This document shows positions 42,633-45,571 of a stretch of 64,000 bases of DNA, piece by piece (the stretch's first letter is position 1; each line of letters opens with the position of its first letter). The notes below the pieces were generated by a model. The model was not told the DNA's origin. It saw only the letters and a list, made by a program, of their open reading frames with translations, and did not search any database. The stretch spans positions 3,811,501 to 3,875,500 of the forward strand of contig NZ_CP019288.1 of NCBI RefSeq assembly GCF_009901525.1. Direction: 5' to 3'. The position numbers were made by a program, and so were the translations under genes. The DNA is from Kordia antarctica (GTDB taxonomy: Bacteria > Bacteroidota > Bacteroidia > Flavobacteriales > Flavobacteriaceae).

Positions 42633-44267
42633 ATGATATATAAAAAACTATTACTAAAGCGTATTTTTTTATTGGGAATTCTTTTTTTTCTAATACACAC
42701 GCTTTCCTATTCGCAACAAAAATTAGTGCTAACCATTAATTTTCAAGACACTAAAAATACAACGTTACAGCAACATATAGACATTGGTAGTGAATTACAA
42801 AAAAATGAAAATTACATAAAGAGTATCTCTTACTTTTTAAAAGCTATTAAGCTTGCAACAGCGACAAAAAACAATGAGCTCTTATTCAAATCATACATGA
42901 AACTTGGCAATTCATATATGTATAGTTGGAAAAATGAAAAAGCGATTGAAGCATATTTTAATGCGCTAACAATTGCCAAAAAGAATAAAAGTATAGATCA
43001 GGAATTGATTGCATATTCTGGGTTAATAGCGCTTCTTCCCTTAATAAATAAAGAAGATAAAGCCATCGATTTTTCTTTGTATGCACTAAGTTTACTTGAT
43101 AAAGCTTCTTTCAGAAATAAAGAAAATCATGTCAGAATATTGACAACTATTTGTGATGCGTATTTGGCTCAAGGGAATTATACTGAAATGTTTGTGCATG
43201 TAGAAAAAGGAATTGCATTGGCAGAAAAACTAAATTATAAAGAAGGACTTGTTGATTTATACATTAAAAAAGGAAAATATTTTAGACATGAAAATAAATG
43301 GGAACAGGCATTTGAGTGTTTATTCAAAGCAGAAAAAATTCTAAAAGAAAATAATATAGCAAATGCTTTTTTTCCTAAAGTAAACACGAATTATGCGATA
43401 GCACTTTGTTTTTATGATCTCAAAAAATATGATGATGCAATTGAATATTTGCTGAATTCAATTGCTTTTATAAAAGAAAAAGATTTAGAAAAAGACAATG
43501 TAATACATACGTATAATTTACTTGCAAAATGTTATTCTGAAAAAGAAAACTACAAAGAAGCAATTACATTATTAAACAAAGTAATAGACCTAAAAAATAC
43601 GGCAAGACGCAATAAAGATATTGCAGCAAACAAATTTCATGAGCAGGATAGTGAAACCTTTTTACTTCAAATTGTTGCATTGCGAAATCAAGAAAAAGCA
43701 GCCAAGCAAACAATGAATTATATGTTTTGGGGAATTATAATAGCTACTTCCGCTTTTTTTCTGACGTTAATTTTATACATTAAAAAGCAAAAAACGAATC
43801 AGGCAACTTTTAAAACGCTTCTCGAAAAAATTTCGACTTTAGAAGAAAATGAAAAAGAAATATTCCCAAAAAAACCTAAAAATGAATTGAAAAATATTCC
43901 TGTTGATGATGCAACTGTGAAAGCAATTATTGGACGATTAAACAAATTAGAAACTCAGGAATATTTTTTAAATCCAAACTGTAGTTTACAATCTATTGCC
44001 AAAAAAACAAAAACAAATGTTACGTATTTATCGCAGATAATTAACAACTACAAAGGCAAAAGTTTTACGGATTATATCAATGATTTAAGAATTGAATATG
44101 TTTTGAAAAGACTAAAGAATGATAAAAAATTCAGATCATTTTCAATAAAAGGAATTGCAACGGAACTTGGCTACAAAAGCGATGATTCTTTTGTGAAGCA
44201 TTTCAAAAAGAAAACTGAATTAAACCCATCGTATTACATAAAAGAATTGAACAAGATAAAAATTTAA
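42633..44267 (+). CDS. TPR-containing membrane regulator with C-terminal AraC-type DNA-binding domain
   Basis: 544 residues. A signal or anchor sequence (about 8-28, LLGILFFLIHTLSYSQQ) is followed by some seven tetratricopeptide-like helix pairs in the periplasm (about 45-330). A transmembrane helix comes next (about 361-382, WGIIIATSAFFLTLILYI), then a cytosolic linker and an AraC-type helix-turn-helix domain (about 445-544: SLQSIAKKTKTNVTYLSQII, then IKGIATELGYKSDDSFVKHF). This one-component transmembrane layout is common in Flavobacteriia. The three short peptide genes follow directly, making it their likely regulator by position. A degenerate copy of its promoter and first seven codons lies at 46055-46151. 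Confidence 0.88.
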   Translation: MIYKKLLLKRIFLLGILFFLIHTLSYSQQKLVLTINFQDTKNTTLQQHIDIGSELQKNENYIKSISYFLKAIKLATATKNNELLFKSYMKLGNSYMYSWKNEKAIEAYFNALTIAKKNKSIDQELIAYSGLIALLPLINKEDKAIDFSLYALSLLDKASFRNKENHVRILTTICDAYLAQGNYTEMFVHVEKGIALAEKLNYKEGLVDLYIKKGKYFRHENKWEQAFECLFKAEKILKENNIANAFFPKVNTNYAIALCFYDLKKYDDAIEYLLNSIAFIKEKDLEKDNVIHTYNLLAKCYSEKENYKEAITLLNKVIDLKNTARRNKDIAANKFHEQDSETFLLQIVALRNQEKAAKQTMNYMFWGIIIATSAFFLTLILYIKKQKTNQATFKTLLEKISTLEENEKEIFPKKPKNELKNIPVDDATVKAIIGRLNKLETQEYFLNPNCSLQSIAKKTKTNVTYLSQIINNYKGKSFTDYINDLRIEYVLKRLKNDKKFRSFSIKGIATELGYKSDDSFVKHFKKKTELNPSYYIKELNKIKI

Positions 44268-44373: not shown

Positions 44374-44526
44374 ATGAAAAAACAAGTAACAAAAATTAGT
44401 TTCAACAAAACAACAATAGCAGCAGTAAACTCAGAAACTATCGGACAAATTAAAGGTGGAACAAGTATTCCAACAGATTTTGATGATTATACTTTTCTAA
44501 GAGATTGTCCATCTATTTCTAAATGA
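44374..44526 (+). CDS. Short double-glycine-leader peptide precursor 1 (lanthipeptide-like leader)
   Basis: 50 codons. The N-terminal half (MKKQVTKISFNKTT, then ETIGQIKGG ending at residue 29) matches the leader design of Bacteroidota class I lanthipeptide and related natural-product precursors. That design is a basic start, an ISFNKxTI-type block, then an IKGG cleavage motif. The 21-residue core (TSIPTDFDDYTF..., with RDCPSISK at the end) has one Cys and several Ser/Thr. It starts 106 nt after the regulator stop, with a near-consensus promoter motif, and is followed by a terminator hairpin. No modifying enzyme or C39 peptidase transporter lies in the window, so processing would need distant genes. 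Leader resemblance is strong; modification is unproven. Confidence 0.72.
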   Translation: MKKQVTKISFNKTTIAAVNSETIGQIKGGTSIPTDFDDYTFLRDCPSISK

Positions 44527-44898
44527 TAATTATTGCACTTATGTAGGTTTCAAGTCTTGTGTTTTTCGCAAGGCTTTTTTTATGCCCTATTTTATTTAAT
44601 CTCGCGCTATAACTCTTTTTTATAAATTTTAAATGATTGATATTCGTATTCAAATTTAATACCAAATAGTAGTTAAAATGGTTGATAAAAAATTGAATTA
44701 TATTTTTTTTAGATGAAATAGAAAATATAATCATAGCATTGTTACGGTTCTATTTTATATTAAAATATAAAGGAAATAGAAACGATTTTAAACTATCATT
44801 TTAAAATTTATTTGGTATAGGCATTGCTAGCATGTTTATATTCATAGGGGAAACCGAAAACCTTTAATAGAGTAGGTTACGTTTTAACAATTGACACA
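44527..44898. other. AT-rich spacer between peptide genes 1 and 2
   Basis: 372 nt. After the terminator (44551-44581) it is very AT-rich, with no supportable reading frame. A minus-strand frame across it lacks any protein-like character. The last 80 nt (GGGGAAACCGAAAACC, then TAGAGTAGGTTACG) are less AT-rich and precede the second peptide gene, so they may hold its promoter or an RNA leader; no known motif was recognised. Confidence 0.6.
44551..44581 (+). terminator. Terminator after peptide gene 1
   Basis: Stem AAGTCTTG / CAAGGCTT (one G-T pair) with a 9-nt loop and a run of seven T, 26 nt after the stop codon. Confidence 0.75.
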
Positions 44899-45051
44899 AT
44901 GAAAAAATCATTTAAAAGTTTACAACTAAAAAAAGAAGTAGTCACTAATTTTGATATCAAAGAAGTGAAAGGTGGAGGAACTGACCCAACTGACATTATG
45001 TGCAATAGCGTACCAAGACATTTAGGCGGATTAGGATGTCATCTGAAATAA
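44899..45051 (+). CDS. Short double-glycine-leader peptide precursor 2
   Basis: 50 codons. The leader MKKSFKSLQLKKEVVTNF continues DIKEVKGG, ending at residue 26. The core is GTDPTDIMCNSVPRHLGG followed by LGCHLK, with two cysteines 12 residues apart. It is closely related to peptide 3: leader 20 of 26 residues or better by eye, and the core pattern CN(S/T)VPRHLGG(L/I)GCHL conserved. The first 14 codons are conserved nearly at DNA level, as is the upstream ACAATT-ACACAATG context. Strong conservation of a two-cysteine core after a GG motif argues for a secreted, crosslinked or modified peptide. The type of crosslink is unknown. Confidence 0.75.
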   Translation: MKKSFKSLQLKKEVVTNFDIKEVKGGGTDPTDIMCNSVPRHLGGLGCHLK

Positions 45052-45138
45052 TTTTTTAGTTAATTCCGCGGAAAAAATTAATTATAGTTTGCGAGATATT
45101 TTTCTCCAAACATTTACAAAACTAAAACAATTAAGACA

Positions 45139-45279
45139 ATGAAAAAATCATTTAAAAGCTTACAATTAAAAAAACAAGTAATCACTTCTTTTGATATTAA
45201 AAAAGTGAAAGGTGGAGTAACTCTTATGTGTAATACTGTGCCAAGACATTTAGGTGGAATAGGATGTCATCTGTTCTAG
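45139..45279 (+). CDS. Short double-glycine-leader peptide precursor 3
   Basis: 46 codons. The leader MKKSFKSLQLKKQVITSF continues DIKKVKGG, ending at residue 26. The core is VTLMCNTVPRHLGGIGCHLF. It differs from peptide 2 mainly by a four-residue shorter segment before the first Cys and by the final residue (Phe for Lys). The two genes are 240 nt apart start to start, a tandem duplication. An inverted repeat with AATTCC / GGAATT ends follows. As for peptide 2, the conserved Cys-to-Cys loop is the probable functional unit. The amphipathic, basic core would fit an antimicrobial or signalling peptide, but that is inference. Confidence 0.75.
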   Translation: MKKSFKSLQLKKQVITSFDIKKVKGGVTLMCNTVPRHLGGIGCHLF

Positions 45280-45448: not shown

Positions 45449-45571
45449 ATGAAATTATTGTTGAGTTCTCTAAATCTTCTATTCTTCAGCGTTACTTCTA
45501 TAATTTCCGCACAACAAGAAGCAGCTAATTACAGTACTATAAAACTATTTACAAACTTTATCAATGAATAA
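45449..45571 (+). CDS. 40-residue secreted peptide or gene remnant
   Basis: An ATG at 45449 opens a 40-codon frame with a good signal peptide (LLLSSLNLLFFSVTSIISAQ) followed by only 20 mature residues (QEAANYSTIKLFTNFINE at the end). It overlaps the start of the next gene by 8 nt. It could be a small secreted protein coupled to the membrane protein gene or the truncated 5' end of a larger secreted protein; the abrupt ending favours a remnant. No family recognised. Confidence 0.4.
   Translation: MKLLLSSLNLLFFSVTSIISAQQEAANYSTIKLFTNFINE

Follow-up and report, generated by a model that had tools for sequence, protein, structure and literature searches.

Three short genes in the genome of Kordia antarctica, each encoding a peptide with a double-glycine (GG) leader, raise the question of which enzymes could act on their products and what controls the formation of these peptides. 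The genes are located within a stretch of 64,000 nucleotides (hereinafter, the window) at positions 3,811,501-3,875,500 of a genome (denoted G000) that consists of a single contig of 5,500,985 bases. We consider it likely that the three peptides, P1, P2 and P3, are class I lanthipeptide precursors modified in trans; less surely, P1 and the regulator encoded next to it may form a pair that controls the locus.

Leaders that contain the LxLxKx5L motif and end in GG have been described in class I lanthipeptide precursors of Bacteroidota (Walker et al. 2020, PMC7268733). According to the same source, the pinensins were then the only lanthipeptides isolated from this phylum. Their producer, Chitinophaga, shares the phylum with Kordia, and we liken the two on that ground.

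Three small genes with double-glycine leaders

P1 (window positions 44374..44526), P2 (44899..45051) and P3 (45139..45279) are encoded on the + strand, start with ATG, and comprise 50, 50 and 46 amino acids, respectively. P1 is a regulator-linked GG-leader precursor, P2 is a precursor of the class I lanthipeptide type, and P3 is a paralogue of P2 (82% identity in the similarity search match). The KGG motif ends at residue 29 in P1 (leader MKKQ...QIKGG, core TSIPTDFDDYTFLRDCPSISK) and at residue 26 in P2 and P3, the cores of which are GTDPTDIMCNSVPRHLGGLGCHLK and VTLMCNTVPRHLGGIGCHLF, respectively. A preliminary description of the window had reported three GG-leader genes of 46 to 50 codons, two of which encode a common core with a Cys-x11-Cys spacing; the positions and lengths of the open reading frames and the KGG motif are as described, and the shared core is borne out on the translations.

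The leader of P1 had been compared to those of Bacteroidota class I lanthipeptide precursors, and P1 does pass the NCBIfam leader model NF038153 (29.3 bits, cut-off 22). When all three peptides are run against this model, P2 and P3 also match it but stay below the same cut-off, at 13.2 and 10.5 bits, respectively. These two were recovered by a wider leader alignment (A3) that includes P2 and P3 themselves. The motif in the P2 leader reads L8-x-L10-x-K12-x5-F18, with Phe replacing the last Leu of LxLxKx5L.

None of the three peptides has a Pfam match at E values up to 10. Homologues with a conserved core, the absence of which had been held to count against these genes, are present: among the matches listed, relatives of P2 occur in at least nine other Kordia genomes (E values from 8.6e-23 to 7.2e-8). 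Orthologues of P1 stand behind the orthologous regulator in three Kordia genomes (G008, G004 and G001), and the pN/pS ratio of P1 is 0.42 (n = 4 sequences). Homologues, pN/pS values and synteny rule out chance open reading frames. An origin from mobile elements was also rejected, given that no relatives of P2 were detected in viral contigs or plasmids at the sensitivity used.

A short open reading frame at 45449-45571 resembles, by eye, the start of an alpha/beta hydrolase of 321-322 amino acids that occupies the matching place in G008, G004 and G001 (e.g., L106:5288-6253). This frame is perhaps a remnant of the hydrolase gene left by a deletion.

A conserved core with two cysteines

The core shared by P2 and P3 follows the pattern C-N-[S/T]...G-G-[I/L]-G-C-H and is found in at least 10 of the 11 Kordia genomes, with G006 lacking it among the matches listed; a scan of genome contigs additionally identified it in Aquimarina aggregata and two uncultured Aquimarina. 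Altogether, 19 copies of this CN[ST] core were read, of which 18 are intact. In the remaining copy (L107:8920-9072 in G004), the leader GG is changed to GR and the second cysteine motif reads GISCH.

All intact copies carry Ser or Thr ahead of the first cysteine, at position -4 in 14 copies and at -3 in four, and again at position +2 (18 of 18 in both cases). Because the first core pattern required Ser/Thr at +2, the fetched loci were scanned again with +1 and +2 left free. This second scan recovered the same copies minus one, lost to the start rule, and +2 was always Ser or Thr. Extra residues of this kind occur as Thr at -1 in five of the 18 copies and at +3 or +4 in three, and no Ser or Thr was found from +5 to the second cysteine, or beyond it, in any intact copy. 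In the five Kordia copies of the P2/P3 type from the window locus, the core is under tighter constraint than the leader (pN/pS of 0.16 versus 0.31); over all 18 intact copies, the pN/pS of the core is 0.29.

Thus, a dehydratable residue is kept ahead of each cysteine, which is the pattern that two (methyl)lanthionine rings would need and, as such, speaks for them indirectly. In P3, T28, C31, T33 and C43 are the sole Ser, Thr and Cys residues past the leader, and the rings are predicted to be T28-C31 and T33-C43; the corresponding prediction for P2 is T31-C35 and S37-C47, and in P1 a single ring, T40-C45, would be expected. Given the extra Ser/Thr residues in several copies, conservation alone does not fix the pairing of the rings. 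The preliminary description had envisaged a single Cys-x11-Cys loop, closed as a disulfide or a thioether. Its two cysteines stand, whereas the conserved Ser/Thr residues suggest two rings instead of one loop.

An alternative is that a disulfide closes the P2/P3 cores or that these are otherwise modified, for example, by a radical-SAM enzyme of the SPASM type, with LanB acting on other precursors only. The scores of P2 and P3 below the lanthipeptide leader cut-off are in line with this possibility. A disulfide, however, needs neither the Ser/Thr at -3/-4 nor the one at +2, both of which are kept in all 18 copies; as far as can be judged from sequence, these positions favor thioether rings, and we regard the alternative as unlikely.

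A P2-like core also occurs in a second genomic home (L109 and L111-L115), close to a gene for a protein of 375-380 amino acids. This nearby gene matches Peptidase_M57 in all three loci tested (L109, L113 and L115); in two of them, L109 and L113, there is also a match to DUF6261.

Modification and export enzymes elsewhere in the genome

The preliminary description found no LanB, LanC or C39 transporter in the window and recommended looking for them in the rest of the genome. A genome-wide profile search agrees with the former and answers the latter: G000 encodes one LanC, one LanB and three C39 matches, all outside the window, and the LanB, LanC and C39 transporter genes are 111-122 kb away. 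Absence of the enzyme set from the genome is ruled out by these matches, and the GG-peptidase transporter, without which the peptides would have been in doubt, is present as a C39 ABC exporter. The added remark that the window holds no radical-SAM gene was not quite right: the gene at 50123-51229 matches Radical_SAM and BATS. We take BATS proteins to be biotin-synthase-like and not RiPP enzymes.

All 11 Kordia genomes have one LanB each. In G000, it is split over two adjacent genes, LanB-N (PF04738, 3.9e-151), which aligns to NisB (4wd9) at 2.1e-24, and an elimination subunit (PF14028/TIGR03891). The LanC match (PF05147, 6.3e-45) has C264, C314 and H315 aligned with the zinc ligands of solved LanC-like proteins. 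The C39 ABC transporter at ~3.734 Mb contains the catalytic cysteine motif QMDCGPTC and is matched over its full length by a bacteriocin transporter (4ry2) at 1.1e-99. The end of the LanB match, at 3,743,317, is 113 kb from P2 (3,856,399); from P1, the distance is 111 kb to LanC and 122 kb to the C39 transporter. The genes for LanC, LanB-N, the elimination subunit, a TPR-AraC regulator, a GG peptide, HlyD and the C39 transporter stand side by side in G000, and the same grouping of LanC, LanB-N, elimination subunit, TPR-AraC, HlyD and C39 is observed in all 10 Kordia relatives.

With these enzymes, the leader would be recognized in trans by LanB-N, which would act by glutamylation, along with the separate elimination subunit and LanC. 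The conserved Ser/Thr residues would be dehydrated and then joined to both cysteines, producing two thioether rings, and the C39 ABC transporter, together with the HlyD adaptor, would cleave after GG and export the core.

Seven SPASM radical-SAM matches (TIGR04085) exceed the cut-off in G000, so that LanB is not the sole candidate modifier and the genome may encode RiPP chemistry of other kinds; this count is the second point on the side of disulfide-closed or otherwise modified cores. One of the seven (G000:C1:2726946-2728786) is encoded ~1.2 kb upstream of a second C39 match, and the two may belong to a RiPP cluster of their own.

Next to the lan genes of G000, a retron-type reverse transcriptase (RVT_1; L104:5266-7469) adjoins an AAA_21 ATPase. 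The reverse transcriptase scores 137 bits against the retron St85 model, below the cut-off of 235, and a relative of the ATPase is present in each of the 10 Kordia lan loci read.

The core beside LanB in Aquimarina

P1-P3 of G000 are more than 100 kb from LanB, whereas in two Aquimarina genomes, precursors are located near it. One row of genes in A. aggregata (G060) comprises two TPR-AraC genes, both accompanied by GG peptides, along with a single P2-like precursor (CNSVPRHLGGIGCHMF), LanB-N and the elimination subunit. In another Aquimarina (G061), each of four TPR-AraC genes in a single run has a GG peptide behind it, and the run also encodes two LanC, three P2-like precursors, LanB-N and the elimination subunit. 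In Aquimarina, P1-like peptides with the GG[TS]S signature share the gene run with the P2/P3-type core and LanB. No LanC was identified in the 30 kb read around the LanB of A. aggregata; two LanC matches are on other contigs of this genome.

Because the core and LanB belong to one run in Aquimarina, the P2/P3 family is a candidate cis substrate there, dispersed in Kordia. The presence of the core in the same run as LanB and the elimination subunit also counts against disulfide closure or SPASM-type modification. The class I lanthipeptide identity that had been guessed for these peptides is supported by sequence evidence of three kinds, namely, the leader model, the enzymes in the genome and the linkage to LanB in Aquimarina. 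If P1-P3 were GG-leader bacteriocins or microcins that leave the cell through C39 without modification, the GG leaders and the C39 exporter would suffice. This we consider very improbable in view of the Cys/Ser/Thr-rich cores, the kept Ser/Thr-Cys spacing and the co-location with LanB in Aquimarina.

A large set of precursors that share the leader

An alignment of 29 leaders, all from G000 itself, yielded at least 140 matches in this genome at E <= 1, at least 113 of them below 1e-3, with the best 150 of 286 candidates scored. The 140 matches form 85 clusters and are divided evenly between the strands (70 each). Of these, 136 were readable, and in two of the 136 the GG split was not found. With a crude split at GG, the 136 cores consist of 11.9% Cys, 11.1% Thr and 7.5% Ser; three cores lack Cys, and two of these are the peptides in which no GG was found. 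The stricter model NF038153 produced 71 matches at E <= 1, of which 20 are over its cut-off. At least 127 leader matches at E <= 0.01 were found in Kordia algicida (best 150 of 266 candidates scored), and 14 and 19 in the two Aquimarina. Two of the G000 precursors, at 1942086 and 3516575, have cores of tandem CGTNN repeats with several cysteines apiece.

A single set of LanB, LanC and C39 transporter may serve more than 100 scattered precursors that share the leader. The prochlorosins of picocyanobacteria present a parallel, in that one enzyme, ProcM, acts on many precursors, many of which are encoded far away (PMC7268733, PMC10783134). The likeness lies in one enzyme set and many distant precursors; the difference is that prochlorosins depend on a LanM and Nif11-type leaders, whereas Kordia has a split LanB with LanC, a short GG leader and a conserved P2/P3 core. 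Compared with precursors of the NF038153 type, P2 and P3 have in common the GG leader with its motif and the LanB/LanC and C39 genes in the genome, but differ in their scores under the cut-off, the distance of over 100 kb to the enzymes, and a core conserved across two genera. Walker et al. limited the distance between precursor and LanC and, by their own account, did not identify many prochlorosins for this reason (PMC7268733). Kordia has been cited as rich in RiPPs, lanthipeptides included, in a study that reports up to 176 precursors in a Bacteroidota genome (PMC11118758), so the number of precursors alone is not new. If our interpretation is correct, class I precursors act at a distance from their enzymes to an extent resembling that of the prochlorosins, and one conserved core stands out among many variable ones.

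A membrane-spanning regulator paired with GG peptides

Directly upstream of P1, and passed over in the preliminary description, is a TPR-transmembrane-AraC regulator (42633..44267, + strand, 544 amino acids) that ends 106 bp before the start of P1. It matches TPR_12 (3.5e-22) and, at the C-terminus, the AraC-type HTH_18 (5.7e-13) in Pfam. The hydropathy profile indicates a hydrophobic N-terminal segment at ~5-25 and a membrane helix at ~362-385, with the TPR helices at ~40-333. An AlphaFold model (mean pLDDT 80.5, pTM 0.54) shows the TPR helices and the HTH domain, as well as a long helix that runs across the membrane segment.

The window regulator is one of 21 full-length TPR-AraC genes in G000, which were obtained from 39 matches by retaining genes that extend over the TPR as well as the HTH, with two fragments of the same gene merged and partial matches left out. 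The query was an alignment of 11 regulators from precursor-bearing loci, which may favor paired regulators, although the presence of a peptide was not demanded. Reading the loci directly, we found a GG-leader open reading frame 76-208 bp downstream of 18 of the 21 regulators, and three lack such a peptide. Counted by a leader match on the same strand within 500 bp downstream, 14 of 21 are paired; in 20,000 circular shifts, this number averaged 0.11 and never exceeded 3. The direct reading, applied to the 43 window genes of at least 150 amino acids, selects one, the regulator itself, and hence none of the 42 others. The window-type loci of G004 and G001 contain two regulator-peptide units each. 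A wider count finds 44 of 49 regulators paired, a figure that includes loci chosen for holding precursors, with two of the five misses running off the locus end.

The distances between cores and those between regulators are correlated: none of 3000 permutations was as strong for all pairs, for both dereplicated sets or for G000 alone, and 2 of 5000 were under slightly different limits in G000. Across the 44 pairs, core distance follows the TPR region (r = 0.72, partial 0.50) but not the HTH (partial -0.03), whereas leader distance tracks the HTH (0.83) more than the TPR (0.76). Sensor-specific co-evolution was nevertheless rejected, given that the excess of TPR over HTH disappears after dereplication (35 and 27 pairs) and in G000 alone (18 pairs). 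Judged by these distances, the co-divergence of core and regulator shows that the two are inherited as a pair, not that they bind.

We propose that the regulator controls the production of P1 and that an exported or periplasmic peptide would act back on the TPR domain, the latter being the weakest step. The locus would then be a self-inducing module with the P2/P3 lanthipeptide as the conserved output. To these proposals as a whole, control of P1 by the regulator included, we give somewhat less than an even chance. About as credible, and likewise just short of even, is the explanation that TPR-AraC proteins sense other cues, such as envelope stress or algal or nutrient signals, and simply switch on the adjoining peptide with no feedback from it. 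That co-divergence with the core is no stronger for TPR than for HTH after removal of close relatives fits such one-way control. One-way control accords less well with the peptides found 76-208 bp behind 18 of 21 regulators of one genome, and with G004 and G001, where the additional regulator in the window-type locus brings a second peptide. A Foldseek search of the TPR part against the PDB retrieved generic TPR proteins; many of the top matches are LGN-type complexes with bound partners, which, generic as they are, would be more at home with peptide feedback.

The proposed module resembles the RRNPP receptor-propeptide pairs described in Firmicutes (PMC10075063) in that a gene for a TPR receptor adjoins a small peptide gene (18 of 21 in G000), and some RRNPP receptors have a DNA-binding domain. 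RRNPP receptors are, however, intracellular proteins of Firmicutes, whereas in the Kordia regulator the TPR is flanked by two hydrophobic segments and accompanied by an AraC HTH_18, its peptide binding being putative; and in place of an RRNPP propeptide, there is a GG-leader peptide of Flavobacteriaceae. TPR genes have been reported in two Bacteroidales RiPP clusters, with a possible pheromone role of the TPR domains (PMC10352776). Among the entries listed from the open literature, covered by titles and the opening parts of abstracts with subscription papers mostly outside, we found no description of the CN[ST] core or of the pairing of TPR-AraC genes with GG peptides; the portion of PMC11118758 that was covered mentions neither.

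The repeated pairing of regulator and peptide may represent a chemical signalling system and, if so, offers a concrete case in which peptide signalling in Bacteroidota could be put to the test. In a broader and more tentative formulation, which we consider less likely than not, membrane-spanning TPR-AraC receptors of Flavobacteriaceae, each encoded upstream of its own GG-leader peptide (probably lanthionine-bearing), would constitute a Gram-negative peptide-pheromone system, with ~18 private channels in this genome and the P1-regulator pair controlling two-ring P2/P3 made in trans. A mining rule follows: precursors can be searched for behind TPR-AraC genes, where tools that examine enzyme neighborhoods would miss them.

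The regulator family across Flavobacteriaceae

The survey covered 149 Flavobacteriaceae genomes, one per genus and G000 included, with up to nine regulator candidates scored per genome; the regulator and LanB surveys were taken as the same 149 genomes by matching handles. The regulator was detected at E <= 1e-60 in 29 genomes and LanB in 15, both counts including G000. With G000 left out, LanB is present in 13 of 28 genomes with the regulator versus one of 120 without it (Fisher 3e-10, uncorrected for the relatedness of genera).

A GG peptide is encoded behind the best-matching regulator in 12 of the 28 other genera (best locus each). The 16 remaining genera, in which this regulator has no peptide, lend weight to control without feedback. 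LanB was found in 11 of the 12 genera with a paired peptide compared to two of the 16 without one (Fisher 5e-5, again uncorrected for kinship). In seven genera, a regulator match and the LanB match share a strand and are separated by ~1 kb.
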